A stretch of 32,268 bases of DNA. Origin: Methanobrevibacter sp. GTDB taxonomy: Archaea > Methanobacteriota > Methanobacteria > Methanobacteriales > Methanobacteriaceae. Every line of letters starts with the position of its first letter. The first letter of the stretch is position 1. The stretch is from NCBI RefSeq assembly GCF_017410345.1, contig NZ_JAFQQZ010000003.1, positions 1 to 32,268 on the forward strand, written 5' to 3'. Of this stretch, positions 15,444 through 32,129 are shown piece by piece. A program made the position numbers and the translations under genes. The notes under the pieces were generated by a model. It did no database searches. It was not told the origin of the DNA and saw only the letters and a list, made by a program, of their open reading frames with translations.

Positions 15444-16139
15444 TTAATTTAATTTTAAAGTAGCAATCGCAAGAGCCTTAAATCCTATATATACATCTTG
15501 GCCTAAAATAAGATCCAACTCTTTGGATGCAGATAAAGTTATATCACTATAGAAAATGACCCCATCCACATCAACCTTAGCACGGATCATATCATCAATA
15601 AGAATGAGCTCGACAATTTTCCCTTTAAAATTATTTCGAATGCTGGATTTTTGAGGACTGTTCATAATGAATATGTTATCATAACTGATTAAAGCCAACA
15701 AACGGTCTCCTATTTTGTATTTATTGTTTAAAGGAATGGTTATATCAAGAGTTTTCATGCGTATTTTCATAACTCCTTTAGAATAATCAATATCTACAAG
15801 CTCCGCTTCCAATTCATTGACTTCACGATGAAGCTCCATGATTGCATTAATCTTCTTGCATTCGCGCAATATCTTTAACCCTTCTTCAGTAAGTTCAGCA
15901 CTTCCACCACCGCCACTGCCTCCCTTTTGAGTTTCAATTACATTAACATTCAAGGTAGACTCCATCTTTTTAATGTAATTTAAAGCGGTACGGTAGGAAA
16001 AGCTGAGCTCATTTGCAGCTGCTCTTATTGAACCTAAATCGTTGATATAATCCAAAAGCAAATACTTTTTCTCATCCAATAGAAAAGAATCCTCACCTAT
16101 GGTAATCCTATATTCCACACTTGTATTGACATTTGCCAT
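15444..16139 (-). CDS. modE: ModE-type molybdate/tungstate-responsive regulator
   Basis: The 231-residue protein has a LysR-like winged helix-turn-helix (about residues 25-90, LGSIRAAANELSFSYRTALNYI, then a Gly-rich wing GGSGGGGSAELTEEG) followed by a Ser/Leu linker helix. Two TOBE/Mop-like halves, from about residues 118 and 170 onward, bind the oxyanion in ModE. In bacteria ModE represses uptake genes and activates molybdoenzyme genes when metal is plentiful. Here it lies next to fdh, mob/moa and fwd, so those are the natural targets. The frame is open to an ATG at 16193, but GGAG 8 nt before the ATG at 16139 favours the shorter form, and the extra 18 residues look unlike ModE. Confidence 0.85.
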   Translation of the reverse strand: MANVNTSVEYRITIGEDSFLLDEKKYLLLDYINDLGSIRAAANELSFSYRTALNYIKKMESTLNVNVIETQKGGSGGGGSAELTEEGLKILRECKKINAIMELHREVNELEAELVDIDYSKGVMKIRMKTLDITIPLNNKYKIGDRLLALISYDNIFIMNSPQKSSIRNNFKGKIVELILIDDMIRAKVDVDGVIFYSDITLSASKELDLILGQDVYIGFKALAIATLKLN

Positions 16140-16291
16140 ATATACAACTCCAAACACTTTTATGCCATCAAAAATATCATTTAAAGGAGGCAAATTAAAA
16201 AATGAATTAAAAGAAAAATTAAAATTTCAATTAAAAAAATAAATTTAGAATAAAAAATAATTAATTAAATATAATTATATTAAATCAATCG

Positions 16292-16609
16292 TCACTCCTG
16301 AACCATTACCAGTTTACCTGTATCAGGATCTCTATAGACCTTTCCGACTTCCGCATAACCTGATTGCTCAAGGGAAGACCCTGCACTTGCATTGCTGGTA
16401 AAGTCTTCACCTGTGCTCACTTGAGAAGTGGCTTGCTTTGCCTGTGATTCATGTGTCTTAGCCATCATATCTGGATTGACTTGAAGAGCCATAATGGCAA
16501 ATATTAAAAATCCTAATGCCAATACCAACATAGCATCTGAAAGGTTTGAAATACCAGTCATAGGATCCTCATCACCATCATCGCTAAAGCGTTTTCTTTT
16601 TCTTAACAT
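16292..16609 (-). CDS. Small one-helix membrane protein, ExbD/TolR-like (DUF2149-type)
   Basis: This is a 105-residue protein. A basic, acidic cytoplasmic N-terminus (MLRKRKRFSDDGDED) is followed by one membrane helix, SDAMLVLALGFLIFAIMAL (about residues 24-42), and then an outward-facing Ser/Thr/Gln-rich tail ending in VYRDPDTGKLVMV. The helix start D-x-MLVL matches the proton-carrying helix of ExbD/TolR (D-V-MLVL in ExbD), and the Asp is residue 25 here. This and the adjacent ExbB-like gene identify it as the partner of a proton-driven channel. I recall the archaeal family DUF2149 for such proteins but could not search. The start at 16609 has GGTG 5 nt upstream; a TTG at 16645 is less likely. 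Confidence 0.75.
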   Translation of the reverse strand: MLRKRKRFSDDGDEDPMTGISNLSDAMLVLALGFLIFAIMALQVNPDMMAKTHESQAKQATSQVSTGEDFTSNASAGSSLEQSGYAEVGKVYRDPDTGKLVMVQE

Positions 16610-16653
16610 ATTATCACCAGTTTCACTGCCAATTTTCACTGCCAATAACCTAA

Positions 16654-17295
16654 CTAGAATCCATTTAATTTCTCTAAAATCGCCTCTGCAACAGCTTCAG
16701 TAGTGGTCAAGTCACTTTCATACCATTGCTTCCTGTATTTGGAAATGACATATCCTATAGCACCAATGGTTAAACCTGTAACTGTAGTGTCAAAAGCAAT
16801 TGTCAAGGATTGTGCCAAGGTAGTGATGTCACCAGTACCCAAAGCAGAAAGTCCTGGCCCTAATGGTATTAAAGTACCAAGCAAACCGAAAATAGGGCCT
16901 AATCTTACTAAAATATCTGTTTTTGAAGTAAGCTTAAGCAAATTGCTCTCTTCCTCTTCAATCAATTTGCTTGCAAATGCCTTTCTTGCATCAGGACCTA
17001 AATTATAATTATTTGTTATTTTTACAAGGATGTCCTTTTGTTCCTTATACAATGCACTTGAATCAATAACAGCCTTCAATTCATCAGGACTGCTTGATTT
17101 TGATACATTCTGCAACAATGATTCCAAAGCATCGGATTTCAATGGCTTCTTGGTAAACCATTCATTTAAAAATCCTCCTAAGCTTAAAATCGCATATACG
17201 AGGAAAATAACTAAAATAATTACAACAGGTGCAAGCAAACTTTCTGAGATTATATGTATAAATGAAGTTAAAATTCCTGTACCTTGAAGTATCAT
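16654..17295 (-). CDS. MotA/TolQ/ExbB proton-channel family protein
   Basis: This 213-residue membrane protein is the channel half of a motor that couples proton flow to mechanical work on a partner. There is one hydrophobic helix near the N-terminus (VVIILVIFLVYAILSLGG), a long cytoplasmic helical region with paired Ser/Lys segments (residues about 45-125), then two helices with family signatures GPIFGLLGTLIPLGPGLSAL and TIAFDTTVTGLTIGAIGYV, including the Thr-rich pore segment. No archaellum or flagellar gene is nearby, so it is ExbB/TolQ-like rather than a swimming motor. The start at 17295 has GGTG 6 nt before the ATG. The downstream ExbD-like gene follows within 45 nt, with a duplicated 13-nt segment in the junction. 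Confidence 0.88.
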   Translation of the reverse strand: MILQGTGILTSFIHIISESLLAPVVIILVIFLVYAILSLGGFLNEWFTKKPLKSDALESLLQNVSKSSSPDELKAVIDSSALYKEQKDILVKITNNYNLGPDARKAFASKLIEEEESNLLKLTSKTDILVRLGPIFGLLGTLIPLGPGLSALGTGDITTLAQSLTIAFDTTVTGLTIGAIGYVISKYRKQWYESDLTTTEAVAEAILEKLNGF

Positions 17296-17350
17296 TCTCT
17301 CCACCAATTTATTAAATAATTAAATAAATATGAAAATATTTTCTTTATGA

Positions 17351-17410
17351 ATTTGAAAATTATTAATTTGAAAATAATTAATTTGAAAATTATTAATTTA
17401 AAAATAATAA
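17351..17410. repeat. Four tandem 15-bp repeats
   Basis: Units of ATTTGAAAATTATTA and close variants occupy 17351-17365, 17366-17380, 17381-17395 and 17396-17410 (the last with ATTTAAAAATAATAA). They lie between the multi-pass membrane protein gene and the exbB-like gene, in what should be a transcribed spacer or the exbB promoter region. They may vary in copy number between strains. Confidence 0.7.
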
Positions 17411-17462
17411 GAATATTATTTTCTTTTAATTTTAAAAATTTATAATTTGAAATAATAATACA

Positions 17463-18146
17463 TTATTTTCTTTTAAGTCTTTTTAAGACCCAATCGCTAT
17501 ATAAAACACCTAAAACAAGGATAATGAGAATAACGATTATTGCATACATCACTTGGTAAGTAGGGGTTAGGATTAGAAAAGACTTGAAGATTGAGTAATC
17601 TAATTCTCTAACAGAACTAAAAGTCAAAGCCAAAATCAGCAAGAATATAAATTCCAAAAACATATATTCCCCGATTACAGCATAATATGGCCTTTTAGCC
17701 TTGTTGAATATTTTAGAAATTTTATAAACCAAAAGCAGAACTATAATGGATAAAATAGCTAATTCCAATGAATTTAAAACTAAATTATCTGATTTTAAGC
17801 ATAATGACAATGCTCCAATTGATATGAATGAAGATAAAACAGTGCCGTAGAATACAATCCTATCATTTTCAATACCATGATTCCTGCCAAAGCTAACAAA
17901 GCGTATTGCAAGTATTAGAACCAATAAGCTAACGAATCCTAAAACATATGGCATGAATGGAATCACATATTCCCCTAAGTTTAAAGAGGATGATATGAAT
18001 GATAAAATAAATACTATCGCACCATAAATCAAGACAAATGGAATAAATTTATTTTTATTAAAATCGTACTTTTTAACTAAAAAGGCAATATTGGTAACGA
18101 ATAATAAAATAAAAACAATTAGATATTCAAAAATCAAATCCATCAT
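17463..18146 (-). CDS. Multi-pass membrane protein linked to the ExbB/ExbD-like pair
   Basis: The 227-residue protein is almost entirely hydrophobic, with about seven predicted membrane helices and a basic C-terminal end (LKRLKRK). No catalytic or transporter motif is recognised by eye. Its size and position beside ExbB- and DUF2149-like genes suggest the archaeal membrane family DUF2162 (called a predicted transporter), but this is unconfirmed. The start has GTGAT 5 nt before the first of two ATG codons. A TATA box (TTTATATAATC, about 18198-18188) lies about 45 nt upstream. It is followed at 167 nt by the exbB-like gene, so all three may be one transcript. Confidence 0.6.
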   Translation of the reverse strand: MMDLIFEYLIVFILLFVTNIAFLVKKYDFNKNKFIPFVLIYGAIVFILSFISSSLNLGEYVIPFMPYVLGFVSLLVLILAIRFVSFGRNHGIENDRIVFYGTVLSSFISIGALSLCLKSDNLVLNSLELAILSIIVLLLVYKISKIFNKAKRPYYAVIGEYMFLEFIFLLILALTFSSVRELDYSIFKSFLILTPTYQVMYAIIVILIILVLGVLYSDWVLKRLKRK

Positions 18147-18315: not shown

Positions 18316-20538
18316 TTATTTCACAACTGCTTTTCCCTTTACGCTAATTGCTTTAAAGGTATTGTCTCCTGCAAATTTGGCAGTGAATTTATAGCTTTTC
18401 CTTTTATTCAATTTAACTTTCACAACAGCAATTCCTTTTGAATTGGTTTTTGCTGTGTATGTTTTTCCATTGATCCTAAAGTTTATTTTCTTGCCTTTAA
18501 TAGCCTTTCCCTTCGGACTTAGGAATTTGGCAGCCAAGGTCTTTTTCTTTGATTTGAGCTTGAATTTCTTATTTGAGACTTTCAATTTGGCTTTAACCGG
18601 ATTTACCTTAATCTTGTATGACCTAAAGGTTGCATCATAATTATTGTCTCCTAAGAAACAAGCCACAATAGTGTAAGTTCCCTTTTTAGCTAAATTAATC
18701 TGTAATTTAACATACCCATTTTTATCTGTTGTCCTATAGTAATTCTTTCCATTGAAGTTAATAATTATCCTTTTATTAACTAAGGCTTTTGAATTGGAAT
18801 CTGTTAATCTGATTTGGAAGTACTTTCCAATCTTTCCATCCTTGCTGTAAACTGTTGTAGTTGTCATATCCTTAGAAACCAACACAGTCTTATTTCTTGT
18901 AATTGTTGCATTAGGAACTGCAGACCCATTGCCTTGAGAATCAGATTCCTTAATGATCATATTTATCCAGAAAGTAGGGGAGATATATTGCCCATTGGAC
19001 TTGATTAGTTTCAATTGGATAAATTCATCAGGATTTGTTATGTTGAATCCCCAATTGTTATTGTCTATACTTCCATCCCCAAATACAATAGCTTCAAATA
19101 AGGTGCCAGATGCAGAATATAAAGTGAAGTTATTGATTTCTAAATTACATTCTTCCAAAGTTGAATCCTTTATCGCCTTAAGGAACCTTTCCAAGGTTTC
19201 ATTTTCTATAATCAACTCAGGCCTTTCCAATATTGAAGCAGACACTTGAAGATTGGAACCTAAATAATAAATGGAAGCATCCCCATAATTCTTTAAGAAA
19301 CTGGAATTGAAGATAGACATGTTTTCAACGAATTTGCTTGCAAAAATAGCTCCCCCATAAGCATCATTTTGCATAAGAACTCCTCTTAATCCTAAAGCGA
19401 CATTTTCTTCAAACTCGCAGTTGCTTATTTCCATATTGAAAACATTTTGACCTAAATAAATTGCTCCAGCATCTCCAACAGCATAATTATTGATAAATTT
19501 GGAGTTGTTTATTGAAAAATTATTAATCGCCTTCAAGTAGATTGCTCCACCGTAGGTATGGGATATGCAATTAATGAAACTGCAGTTATCAATCCTTCCA
19601 TTGTTTCCAACCCAATGAATAGCTCCCCCTAATCCATCAGCCAAATATGTTTGCTCTTCACCATGCAATGTCCATGCAAATTTTGATATTGCTGAATTGT
19701 TGATGAAAATGGAATTTGAAATGGAATTATTGAATCCTTTCAACCAAATAGCTCCTCCTGAAGATGCAGTTTCATAATTGTAACCTGTATTGTTTATGAA
19801 AGTGCAATTGTCTATTACTGCATTGTTGGATATTAAGTAAATTGCTGGACCATCAGTATGGTGACAGCTGGACTTATTAGCTATATTGTTTAAGAATTTT
19901 GTGTTTAAGATTTTAGCATTATCTCCGAAGCAACTTAATGCAGAGCCTAATTCCCCATTTATTGAGTTTTCAAAGATACAATTATCTATGGTTACATTCC
20001 CATCATTGATTGAAACTGACATTCCATGGGAATTGGCAAACCTGATGTTTTTAATCAATACATTTGGAGATCTTATATCCAATATTTGAGTTAAGAACTT
20101 AGCGTCAAGCGTAGCACCAGAATCATCTCCAACAATATTTAAAGTCTTATTGATGATTATTTTAGAATCACCTGAATAAAGTCCCTTGAGAATAACTGTA
20201 TCATTTTCATTGGCTTGATCAAATAGATTTTGAATGACAGTGAAATCATCCCCACTCTCTGAAGTGAGCATATCTTCAGAGTGATGATATGAACTTATTT
20301 GATCATTTAAATCCTCATTCTCTAAATCTGAATCAGAAATAGAATTACCAAATTCAGAAGTATAAACAGCCCCCCAATCTGAATCTGAAATTTCAGAATT
20401 TTCAACTATTGTATTATCATCATAATTTATATCGATTAAATCATTAGAATTATTTGAAGCAGAAACTAATCCCAAACTTAAAATTAGAATGAAAATTAAT
20501 GATATTGATAATAATAATCTATTAAAATTTATTTTCAT
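18316..20538 (-). CDS. Adhesin-like surface protein with beta-helix and Lys-rich Ig-like C-terminus
   Basis: This is a 740-residue secreted protein. The signal peptide runs to about residue 28 (LLLSISLIFILILSLGLVSA). An acidic Ser/Asp-rich stretch lies at 30-95. From about 100 to 490 is a right-handed beta-helix (pectate-lyase-like) with repeated FxNN and GGAI motifs (GGAIWLKG, GGAIHWVG, GGAIYLKA). Two Ig-like domains follow (about 550-645 and 646-740); the second is very rich in Lys and ends in FAGDNTFKAI…VVK. There is no membrane helix or sortase motif at the end. It resembles Methanobrevibacter adhesin-like proteins; ligand unknown. GGTAGAG precedes the ATG; a TATA box lies near 20590-20603. 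It sits upstream of the membrane-motor genes on the same strand. Confidence 0.8.
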   Translation of the reverse strand: MKINFNRLLLSISLIFILILSLGLVSASNNSNDLIDINYDDNTIVENSEISDSDWGAVYTSEFGNSISDSDLENEDLNDQISSYHHSEDMLTSESGDDFTVIQNLFDQANENDTVILKGLYSGDSKIIINKTLNIVGDDSGATLDAKFLTQILDIRSPNVLIKNIRFANSHGMSVSINDGNVTIDNCIFENSINGELGSALSCFGDNAKILNTKFLNNIANKSSCHHTDGPAIYLISNNAVIDNCTFINNTGYNYETASSGGAIWLKGFNNSISNSIFINNSAISKFAWTLHGEEQTYLADGLGGAIHWVGNNGRIDNCSFINCISHTYGGAIYLKAINNFSINNSKFINNYAVGDAGAIYLGQNVFNMEISNCEFEENVALGLRGVLMQNDAYGGAIFASKFVENMSIFNSSFLKNYGDASIYYLGSNLQVSASILERPELIIENETLERFLKAIKDSTLEECNLEINNFTLYSASGTLFEAIVFGDGSIDNNNWGFNITNPDEFIQLKLIKSNGQYISPTFWINMIIKESDSQGNGSAVPNATITRNKTVLVSKDMTTTTVYSKDGKIGKYFQIRLTDSNSKALVNKRIIINFNGKNYYRTTDKNGYVKLQINLAKKGTYTIVACFLGDNNYDATFRSYKIKVNPVKAKLKVSNKKFKLKSKKKTLAAKFLSPKGKAIKGKKINFRINGKTYTAKTNSKGIAVVKVKLNKRKSYKFTAKFAGDNTFKAISVKGKAVVK

Positions 20539-20777: not shown

Positions 20778-22736
20778 CTATTCTTTCATCATCTCAATAA
20801 TATCTTCACGGTAGTATAATCCTATGACAAGTATTATTAAAATCACTAATCCGCCAACACCAATAACTCTGAATGTTTCATCATCAATGGATAATGTTTT
20901 GGCAGATGCACTTTCAGGAACACTGGAACTTGGTGATGGACCTGCTGAGGATGATGCAGAAACACCTGCACTGCCTGAGCTTCCAGATAACACTCCATTG
21001 GAATTGATTGAATAATCCCCTGAAGATAGTCCAGAATCACCGGAACCTGATTGGTTTTGGGAATTAGCATGGCTTGGATTATTTTGAGAATCTGCATTTG
21101 AATTTCTTTTTGAATTTGAACTCAATGCCTTCAACAATTCATTATAGAAACTTTCATAATAATCCATTTCTTCAGAATCCACTTGGTCAAATTGACCCCA
21201 CTGGCTGAATTGCCTATTATCCTCACCTACATTAAGAGAAGAACTTGAGCTTCCCTTTCCTCCAGCACCTGAACCAATATCCAAATACGCAACAGAATTG
21301 ATGAAATTAACAGTATAAGAACGACCATTAACAGTTAGAACAGCTGAAAAATTAGGCAATCCAGAAACGGCATTGCCGTACCTGTCAACAACTGAGAAAT
21401 AATATTTGCTTCCGCTTTGGCGAGAGCGAATGTTAAATCCATATTTCATTCCAACCCTATAACACCTATTCTTTGCAAAGTTCTTTCCAATGCTTACAGC
21501 TTTATCACCCTTATTTTGCAAATCCAATACGCCATTATATGAGAAGAAGTTGTTTTCCAAAGTGAAATTGCCCTTGGTTCCCATGAAATCATAATCGAAC
21601 AAGACCCCCACTCGACTGTTGCCGGTTACAAGATTCTTGTTAAAGGTAAAGTCATTGATCCAACCTTGTATGATAACACCATCACCATTGTCGCTGATTG
21701 TATTGTTGATGATTGACACATTATTTACTGAATAAGGAAAATCAATAGCTGTATACCATTTTCTTATTGTATTTCCTTTCATCAATACGTTGCAAGCATC
21801 CTTGCCGAAGTATATGGCAGTGCCTTCTACACGCTTATCATTGGAAATTATGTTGTTGTTGAGTATACTGATTCCCTTTTTGCTGCTAATGCCCTTTAAA
21901 TTGATTCCAATATTATTCCCGTTATTTGGTGTAATGTTATTCTTGGAAATAGTCACTCCACCAGATTTGGAAATATCTATTGCAATTTTAAAGCTTGAAA
22001 AGACATTGTTACTTATAGTGGAATCGTAAACATCATTGAAAACTATCCCATTCCGTTTTGTAGATATTTTATTTCCAGAGATTCTAATTCCTGAAACATC
22101 ACTTGCATCTACAAAGGAACCGACCAGATTAGTGGTAAAACCGCTAATGTTTGTTCCAGACCCTCCTGACAATATAGTAAATACAGGAATATTGAAGATA
22201 TTAGTAATCAATGTGCCAGATTTACTTATAATGTTTAAAGGCTTTGAAATCTTCAAATAGATATTTTCATAGGAGGAACCTGTAAACTGAATAGTGCTTC
22301 CAGCTGCCACATCATCGATAAGATTCTGAATATATTCATTGATGGAACCATCATAGGAACTTGCATCTTTGATTATAATGGTTTGTGGACCTTTCAATAA
22401 AGAAGCAGAACTGTCTGATTGGGTTAATAAAACATCATTATCGATTTTGCTAGAATCGTCAGTTGAACTTAAGATATCCTTGGATTTCTTATTATTTGAA
22501 TTTCCAGATACATCTGAAATCTCTGCAATGGAATCTGATGAATAATCAATATTGGACTCATCATTAATGGTCTCATCTAAAATATCACTATCAATAACTT
22601 CATCTTGAGAACTGATAGAATCTGATGAAACATCCACAGATAAATCCGATAAATCATTATCTTCAGTTGCAACTGCAGATCCAAGACTTGTGAAGAATAT
22701 TAAGATAATAAAAATCATTAATATTCTCTTCCTAAT
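20778..22736 (-). CDS. Membrane-anchored adhesin-like protein with apparent ATT start codon
   Basis: The chain has about 652 residues: signal peptide (RKRILMIFIILIFFTSLGSA), acidic Asp/Ser-rich region, beta-helix from roughly 120 to 420 with many NN-S turns, a small Ig-like domain (about 425-490), a long Ser/Gly/Asn/Pro-rich spacer likely to be O-glycosylated and to cross the wall, and a C-terminal membrane helix (VIGVGGLVILIILVIGLYY) with a short charged tail. The SD GGGAGGTG (22750-22743) is perfect, but 6 nt after it the in-frame codon is ATT. An ATG 2 nt after the SD is out of frame and stops after two codons. Other in-frame choices are TTG at 22754 (upstream of the SD), GTG inside the SD, or ATG at 22718, which would remove the basic n-region. 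The protein is typical of this family otherwise. Confidence 0.75.
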   Translation of the reverse strand: MRKRILMIFIILIFFTSLGSAVATEDNDLSDLSVDVSSDSISSQDEVIDSDILDETINDESNIDYSSDSIAEISDVSGNSNNKKSKDILSSTDDSSKIDNDVLLTQSDSSASLLKGPQTIIIKDASSYDGSINEYIQNLIDDVAAGSTIQFTGSSYENIYLKISKPLNIISKSGTLITNIFNIPVFTILSGGSGTNISGFTTNLVGSFVDASDVSGIRISGNKISTKRNGIVFNDVYDSTISNNVFSSFKIAIDISKSGGVTISKNNITPNNGNNIGINLKGISSKKGISILNNNIISNDKRVEGTAIYFGKDACNVLMKGNTIRKWYTAIDFPYSVNNVSIINNTISDNGDGVIIQGWINDFTFNKNLVTGNSRVGVLFDYDFMGTKGNFTLENNFFSYNGVLDLQNKGDKAVSIGKNFAKNRCYRVGMKYGFNIRSRQSGSKYYFSVVDRYGNAVSGLPNFSAVLTVNGRSYTVNFINSVAYLDIGSGAGGKGSSSSSLNVGEDNRQFSQWGQFDQVDSEEMDYYESFYNELLKALSSNSKRNSNADSQNNPSHANSQNQSGSGDSGLSSGDYSINSNGVLSGSSGSAGVSASSSAGPSPSSSVPESASAKTLSIDDETFRVIGVGGLVILIILVIGLYYREDIIEMMKE

Positions 22737-22754
22737 ACATTTCACCTCCCACAA

Positions 22755-30458: not shown

Positions 30459-32129
30459 TTAATTTGACCTATCTCTTTTTCTCAATAATCCAAATGCAAA
30501 TATTAGCAAAACAATAATGAAAACTAATATGTATCGGATATCAAAAGATTTTTGACTAATAGGATCCTCTTCAAATAATTCAACCATTTTCTTATTATTG
30601 GAATTCTCACTAACAAATGTGGAATTCACTTCATCTGATTCAATAGCTGATTTGCTTAATGTGGATTTTGATTGATTGTTCAATAAGTTACTTGAAAAAC
30701 CATTTGACTGATTGCCCAAAGAATCTTTCAAATCTGTTCCGGTATTTGATTTCCCATTAGAACTGCCTGCATCAGTTTTATTGTCATCAAATTTCAATCC
30801 ACTATCGCTTGAATTGAAACGTTTGAAATGATCATCATAATCCCTGCCATAATAATCCTGCAAAATATCAGAGTATCTGTTTAACAATGAAAAGTCCAAT
30901 AAGTCAAATAAACCCATATTTTGATTAGTTCTAGTTGGTTTTATCCTTTTTGAAACATTATTAGGATCCAAAATAGAAGAATCGGTTGGGTCTTCATCTC
31001 CCCAATTGTTATCATTGAACTTAGGGAACAAATACTTTGCATCAGGCCATTTAACAAATACCTCTTTTCCTAAAGGAGAGGAATTATTTGTTATGATGTT
31101 ATCATGCACGTTTATGACTGTTGTAGCATTGAACATTGGCTGTTGAATATAAAATGAACCTCCAGTTTCGCCAGCTGTATTGTTTAAAATAATCGAATTT
31201 GTGAGGTTAAGGTTTCCAGAAACCATTATGGCTCCACCATTTGTGCCTGCTGTATTGTTGATGAAGATGCATCTGTCAAGACTGGAGTTTCCAGCCCAAC
31301 TGTAATAGGCACCAGCCCACTCATCTGCATGATTATACATAAAAATACAATCTTGAACATTACCATATCCAAAAATGCTCACACGAATAGCTCCACCATC
31401 ACGACGAGCAGAGTTATTGATGAATACAGAATTATAAATGTCTGATTTTGCATAACAGGTAGTTACTGCACCTCCATCATGGTCTGCATGATTGCCTATG
31501 AATAGAGAATTGTTTACAAGCAAATAGCTTCTATCCGTTTCATTTCCATAGTTTGAAATAGCCCCTCCATTGGTAACATTTAATGCTGTGTTGTTAATGA
31601 AGATGCAATTGTCAACATAAGCATTACCTGTTTCAATGCAGATTCCACCACCGAAATTACCTGTTTTCCCATTGGTAATGGTTAAGTTATTAAATTTGGC
31701 AGTTATGCCAATGTCTTGAATGAAGAATATGCTTGACAATTCTTCACCATCGATAATGACTTCACGTGGGTCTCCATAGCCTTGCAGAGAAATGTTTTTA
31801 GTGATATTGATTCCATGAACCTTATATGTGCCAGGTTCAATTAGGATTGTATCTCCATTATTTGCATTTTTTATTCTGCTAATCAATTCCTGTGAAGATT
31901 CATCTGAATTCTGGAGATAATTAGAGTCCTTAAGAGTTGAATCTGAACTAGAAATACTAGGAGATTCAGTAATAGGATCCAAATCATTTATCTCTAAATC
32001 AAAACTGTTTTCATAAGCTAAATCTTCATTAAGAATATTATCATCAATAGTTTCTGCATTAATTGAAGGAACAGTAATCAGAAAAATTAATAATAAGCTA
32101 AATGATATCCATTTAACTTTATCTTTTAT
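30459..32129 (-). CDS. Membrane-anchored adhesin-like protein with apparent ATA start codon
   Basis: The chain is 556 residues if translation starts at the ATA at 32129. A signal peptide follows directly (KDKVKW, then ISFSLLLIFLITVPSINA), then an acidic stretch and a beta-helix from about 75 to 350 with GGAI/GGAV and FINN repeats. A Ser/Asn/Lys-rich spacer (about 390-520) leads to a C-terminal membrane helix (YILVFIIVLLIFAFGLL) with RKRDRS after it. A perfect SD, GGGAGGTG (32142-32135), is placed 5 nt before this ATA. No ATG, GTG or TTG exists in frame until TTG at 31982, which would discard the whole signal peptide, and TAA lies immediately upstream of the ATA. The gene is thus either started at AUA or has lost its ATG by one substitution. 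Confidence 0.72.
   Translation of the reverse strand: MKDKVKWISFSLLLIFLITVPSINAETIDDNILNEDLAYENSFDLEINDLDPITESPSISSSDSTLKDSNYLQNSDESSQELISRIKNANNGDTILIEPGTYKVHGINITKNISLQGYGDPREVIIDGEELSSIFFIQDIGITAKFNNLTITNGKTGNFGGGICIETGNAYVDNCIFINNTALNVTNGGAISNYGNETDRSYLLVNNSLFIGNHADHDGGAVTTCYAKSDIYNSVFINNSARRDGGAIRVSIFGYGNVQDCIFMYNHADEWAGAYYSWAGNSSLDRCIFINNTAGTNGGAIMVSGNLNLTNSIILNNTAGETGGSFYIQQPMFNATTVINVHDNIITNNSSPLGKEVFVKWPDAKYLFPKFNDNNWGDEDPTDSSILDPNNVSKRIKPTRTNQNMGLFDLLDFSLLNRYSDILQDYYGRDYDDHFKRFNSSDSGLKFDDNKTDAGSSNGKSNTGTDLKDSLGNQSNGFSSNLLNNQSKSTLSKSAIESDEVNSTFVSENSNNKKMVELFEEDPISQKSFDIRYILVFIIVLLIFAFGLLRKRDRSN

Follow-up and report, generated by a model that had tools for sequence, protein, structure and literature searches.

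A three-gene cassette in a 32,268-nucleotide stretch of Methanobrevibacter sp. DNA (the window, taken at its full length) belongs, as a divergent member, to the hmuTUV-type cassettes and has been re-used alongside a surface beta-helix protein. The reading toward which we lean, with somewhat more confidence than doubt, is that it encodes an ion-driven, hmuTUV-like motor of the 5:2 type, which passes force to the tail-anchored surface protein encoded at 20778-22754. A preliminary description of this DNA had recognized the motor-like genes; it overlooked that they correspond to hmuTUV of an operon already known and that their recurring partner possesses a C-terminal membrane tail.

The three genes lie on the minus strand where they had originally been placed, and chance open reading frames were ruled out by the conserved orthologs of all three. 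The ExbB/TolQ-family protein (16654-17307; probable start ATG 17295, 213 aa), the putative wheel of the motor, contains the previously noted segments GPIFGLLGT and TVTGLTIGA and matches MotA/TolQ/ExbB (PF01618) with an E value of 1.2e-8 and 35.2 bits against a cut-off of 22.9. Its AlphaFold (AF2) model, with a mean pLDDT of 95.2 and three long helices, is ExbB-like; the top Foldseek matches were the ExbB chains 5zfp, 9ddo, and 6tyi (TMq ~0.6, E 3e-4). Residue T145 is aligned in all 168 relatives and T175 in 162 of them.

The candidate axle is a DUF2149 protein of 105 aa (16292-16609, minus strand), whose ATG at 16609 lies 45 nt past the ExbB stop, within an open reading frame (16292-16645) that is open from TTG 16645. 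It comprises one transmembrane helix and a short extracellular part with a hairpin-like motif, GKVYRDPDTGKLVMV, at its end. As had been pointed out, Asp25 stands in a D-x-MLVL segment at the start of the helix, within NLSDAMLVL; it is aligned in 160/160 archaeal and bacterial relatives, with one further row gapped. The original assignment as an ExbD-like partner needs amendment: the protein does resemble ExbD/TolR in its single helix with Asp at the helix start, but its family is DUF2149 (PF09919; E 2.8e-16, 60.1 bits against a Pfam cut-off of 27.1 for 16292-16645). The ExbD profile (PF02472) was unmatched, ruling out a true ExbD. Only about 60 residues extend beyond the helix, and PDB sequence searches using DUF2149 and seven-helix profiles as queries returned no matches.

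ExbBD and TolQR use proton flow to act across the bacterial envelope on an outer-membrane partner. The claim that the window holds an ExbB-type pair in an archaeon lacking an outer membrane was borne out. Neither TonB (PF03544) nor a TonB-dependent receptor (PF00593) was matched in the organism's own genome; a TonB-type system is thereby ruled out. Compared with ExbB-ExbD-TonB and TolQ-TolR-TolA, the cassette shares the ExbB fold, the pore threonines, and a one-helix partner with an ion-path Asp. Unlike in those systems, DUF2149 replaces ExbD, no outer membrane partner exists, and the client helix is C-terminal rather than N-terminal; by analogy, this helix is assumed to lie outside the pentamer, as in TonB/Tol motors. 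The genome carries four pairs of ExbB with DUF2149 and, apart from them, one true ExbB-ExbD pair. The latter (L013:8417-9680, G000:C17; PF01618 E 4e-29, PF02472 E 7e-8) has no TonB and adjoins coenzyme F420 biosynthesis-like genes.

Ahead of the pair, as described earlier, lies the gene for a membrane protein with seven predicted transmembrane segments (17463-18146, minus strand), which is probably of a divergent DUF2162/HmuT type. No significant Pfam match was obtained for it, including DUF2162 (PF09930); a profile built from the DUF2162 proteins of neighboring loci matches it with an E value of 3e-9. The PCPxC motif, kept in most DUF2162 members examined, is absent from this protein and its orthologs. 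Because its AF2 model reached a pLDDT of 69 and gave no fold match below an E value of 0.001, no fold is claimed. A literature search on DUF2162 found no paper. The gap between the seven-helix and ExbB genes (window 17330-17450) contains AT-rich direct repeats that are TTTTCAAATTAATAATT-like.

Kinship with the hmu heme operon is evident from gene order and homology. In Bacteroidota, hmuSTUV encodes CobN, a hypothetical membrane protein, ExbB, and DUF2149, in that order (PMC10434189), which was also seen in the Bacteroidota loci L096-L098. The window presents a multi-pass protein, ExbB, and DUF2149 in hmuTUV order, and its ExbB and DUF2149 are homologous to those of hmu across archaea and bacteria. 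The client likewise has a C-terminal transmembrane segment in both systems; for HmuS, membrane helices have been described at the N- and C-terminus (PMC13227078, PMC12583661). The window differs in that a probable beta-helix client replaces CobN/HmuS, the outer membrane and HmuY/HmuR are missing, and the seven-helix protein lacks PCPxC. Pfam found no CobN within the window, neither separate nor fused to or hidden in the beta-helix proteins; outside the window, one CobN is encoded at the end of a contig in the same genome. The link of DUF2149 (COG4744/arCOG03208) to TolQ in methanogens had already been listed, without a function or client (PMC9425974).

A scan of genome contigs recovered 80 cassette loci, which come from archaea of the Methanosarcinales type and from a wide range of bacterial phyla. 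DUF2149 is present in 79 and the CobN-type chelatase in 72 of these, and each of the 37 loci spanning 15 kb or more carries both. The co-linkage of the three genes across genomes, which the preliminary description had named as a check, was found in most loci. A membrane helix stands at the C-terminal end of CobN in 60/61 cases, the remaining one being a broken sequence, and in many it is preceded by a VEGYEM-like motif. In Trichlorobacter, DUF2162, ExbB, DUF2149, and CobN adjoin a complete ExbB-ExbD-TonB set; since the two sets are carried side by side, neither substitutes for the other there.

Exchange of the client goes together with loss of PCPxC from the seven-helix protein. Among archaeal loci with an identifiable tail-anchored neighbor, PCPC occurs in the seven-helix protein at 9 of the 10 with CobN versus 1 of the 30 with another client (Fisher p 3.6e-7), the exceptions L010 and L069 being unclear by position; loci scored without PCPC lack either the motif or the seven-helix gene. 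On the ExbB tree, these loss states require several independent changes in several lineages, and the window cassette sits in a clade without the motif.

The partner of the window motor is most likely the secreted beta-helix protein at 20778-22754 (minus strand; Beta_helix E 6e-20), which ends in the transmembrane tail KTLSIDDETFRVIGVGGLVILIILVIGLYYREDI. Orthologs of the seven-helix protein were found in 10 of the 19 genomes searched in the genus, its own included. In all six complete loci (the window, L113, and L115-L118), a counterpart of 20778-22754 lies upstream of the cassette on the same strand; in two of the six, this tail-anchored gene directly precedes the seven-helix gene. The gene just upstream of the cassette in the window, singled out earlier as an example of the secreted beta-helix proteins on which the pair might act, encodes a secreted beta-helix/Big-domain protein (18316-20538, minus strand; Pfam Big_3_5, Big_1, and Beta_helix). 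It has no transmembrane tail, and its tail-less counterpart between client and cassette is missing in L116 and L118, marking it as an optional neighbor. The proposal of a surface beta-helix client remains probable, with the conserved 20778-22754 in place of 18316-20538. Across orthologs of 20778-22754, the tail block is 76% conserved, like the beta-helix domain, whereas the linker between them changes fast (38-57%). The window tail was unmatched by a bacterial-only profile and by a profile leaving it and similar tails out; because it is too divergent for the latter, gene order and conservation are what support its assignment. A second tail-anchored surface protein and possible remote client (30459-31982, minus strand; 507 aa with Chlam_PMP repeats) ends in the same kind of tail (KKMVELFEEDPISQKSF, helix, RKRD), which matched with E 2.2e-12 when the profile contained it and 0.01-0.025 when left out.

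Comparable arrangements extend through the Methanobacteriaceae, in which DUF2149 was found in 87/100 genomes, often in multiple copies. A nearby gene encodes a secreted protein whose C-terminus is a membrane tail, often consisting of KAYEV, a short linker, a helix, and GYxR. The tail-anchored ectodomain is CobN at some loci and an FmdE-domain, beta-helix, DUF11, beta-propeller/PKD, or unassigned protein at others. All four cassette copies of the window's genome keep the T-U-V order near such a protein. A profile built from bacterial CobN tails alone matches archaeal tails, including those of a beta-helix protein (E 6e-4) and of DUF11 proteins; the tails are therefore probably related. No NCBIfam model matched the tail above its own cut-off.

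Tails and motor also track each other across genomes. At E<=1e-3, tails are absent from 7 of 8 genomes without DUF2149 (each at least 85% complete) and present in 29 of 34 with it; the associated Fisher p of 2e-4 is, like the other p values given here, optimistic, as the tail profile was built from motor neighbors and the genomes are related. The contrast persists inside one genus (g6; G039 and G032 versus G005 and G022). Four DUF2149 genomes gave no tail match, and G011, an assembly in 490 contigs, has tails with no DUF2149 found. In G131, G126, and G133, order-level relatives outside the set used to build the profile, two of the 11, 7, and 8 tails, respectively, lie within 8 kb of DUF2149, against about 0.1 expected. 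Most tails of a genome are nevertheless distant from any motor, which rules out the tail as a marker limited to motor neighborhoods, and in some genomes a single motor is accompanied by 6-11 tails that are scattered over different loci; one motor would accordingly serve several clients.

Published expression data from M. ruminantium M1 lend some support to the proposed pairing of motor and client. The window-type locus of G026 shares its gene order with M. ruminantium M1 mru_0326 to mru_0332, which ends in fdhC (PMC5816558). Under lauric acid, mru_0327, taken here as the tail-anchored beta-helix protein, rose by 1.73 log2 and the ExbB gene mru_0329 by 1.56 log2 (PMC5816558). Since about a quarter of all adhesin-like genes was raised as well (PMC5816558), this joint increase is support rather than proof. 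M. ruminantium M1 has 14 adhesin-like proteins with a C-terminal transmembrane segment (PMC2812497); for such Methanobrevibacter proteins, no motor link is reported in the papers found.

From the perspective of mechanism, ExbB subunits, probably five, would form the wheel of an inferred 5:2 assembly, and DUF2149, probably as two copies, would supply the axle, with Asp25 as the presumed ion-carrying residue and the seven-helix protein as a putative membrane accessory. Given the fold of ExbB, the invariance of residues in the ion path, and the known 5:2 motors (PMC9389320), an ion-driven movement of DUF2149 inside the ExbB ring is likely. The proposed client, 20778-22754, would be anchored in the membrane through its C-terminal tail, which may contact the ExbB ring much as the TonB and TolA helices do. 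Ion flow would then set the axle and the surface of ExbB in motion, with the tail relaying force to the ectodomain outside; judging from the analogous machines, the surface protein could, for example, be extended, turned over, or released through the pseudomurein wall. A broader proposal, which we regard as possible yet would not quite bet on, is that a general DUF2149-ExbB motor is common to archaea and bacteria and recognizes its clients by their C-terminal tail, so that ectodomains (chelatase, FmdE-domain, beta-helix, and others) are interchangeable and one motor acts on many surface proteins of cells that lack an outer membrane. As far as the searched open-access papers show, the idea of a single motor type whose tail-anchored clients can be exchanged is new.

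Several other explanations can be weighed against a motor acting on 20778-22754. ExbB-DUF2149 might instead drive heme, another tetrapyrrole, or a metal through the seven-helix protein, with the surface protein only catching the substrate. The identical hmuSTUV order, in which HmuTUV is presumed to carry heme across the inner membrane (PMC13227078), speaks for such transport, as do the presence of CobN in 37/37 long cassette loci outside the Methanobacteriaceae and the potential of PCPxC to bind metal. We nonetheless consider it rather unlikely here: the window copy has no adjoining CobN, and the absence from its seven-helix protein of the PCPxC kept in CobN-linked loci also speaks against the uptake through the multi-pass protein that was initially suggested. 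Moreover, several ExbB-DUF2149 clades have no adjoining seven-helix protein, and thus the motor can apparently do without it. Uptake of molybdate or tungstate under ModE control is very improbable; metal-oxyanion uptake had been raised earlier as an alternative from the placement of the modE gene (15444-16193, minus strand; TIGR00637 and TOBE matches). ModE directly adjoins DUF2149 downstream in the window, L112, and L113 only, lies near a decayed DUF2149 copy in L119 and near another DUF2149 type in L058/L065, and is absent from that position in L114-L118. This patchy link, together with formate transporter, formate dehydrogenase, and moaA genes near the window modE that better explain its position, places the regulator probably outside the system; under lauric acid, ExbB and fdhC (mru_0332, down 1.11 log2) of M. 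ruminantium change in opposite directions (PMC5816558).

The tail itself invites another explanation. A motif, a hydrophobic stretch, a basic end, and a partner tracked across genomes are the usual pattern of sorting systems, and the short C-terminal tails have all of these, the partner being the motor. The cassette could hence secrete, insert, or place tail-anchored proteins in an archaeosortase-like manner; we judge this unlikely, because the three proteins show no match to known families of proteases or transpeptidases and the relatives of ExbB are motors. It is more improbable still that ExbB-DUF2149 acts independently on the pseudomurein wall or membrane, with surface-protein genes nearby only through their abundance. 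With 105 adhesin-like genes in M. ruminantium, chance neighbors are likely (PMC2812497); however, the same tail-anchored gene is kept in every complete locus while tail-less neighbors come and go, motor and tail co-occur, and the same cassette is found in bacteria without pseudomurein.

Descriptions of ExbB-type motors present them as machines that reach the outer membrane, the flagellum, or gliding systems. If true, a motor linked to tail-anchored proteins in archaea with a single membrane would represent a different use, on proteins of the same membrane. For the hmu operon in gut bacteria, the current view is that HmuU and HmuV energize the receptor in the outer membrane. That the cassette also occurs in cells without this receptor, and in Trichlorobacter next to a separate ExbB-ExbD-TonB set, suggests that the client of the motor is HmuS/CobN itself. 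Both the roles of the many archaeal CobN homologs and those of membrane-anchored adhesins in rumen methanogens thereby become testable.

Individual loci illustrate the range of tail-anchored proteins. Large secreted FmdE-domain (PF02663) proteins with a CobN-like C-terminal tail occur in L058, L065, L131, L218, L228, L053, and L130. In L077 (G070), two ExbB-DUF2149 pairs stand near-tandem, 3.5 kb apart, and adjoin a 2019-aa beta-propeller/PKD/beta-helix tail-anchored protein. The 1.24 Mb genome of G100 encodes seven secreted, tail-anchored CobN paralogs and one FmdE-domain protein (L221-L228). The tails of these eight proteins are 92% identical and the CobN parts 36%; as the tail DNA is nearly identical too, gene conversion contributes to the tail identity.
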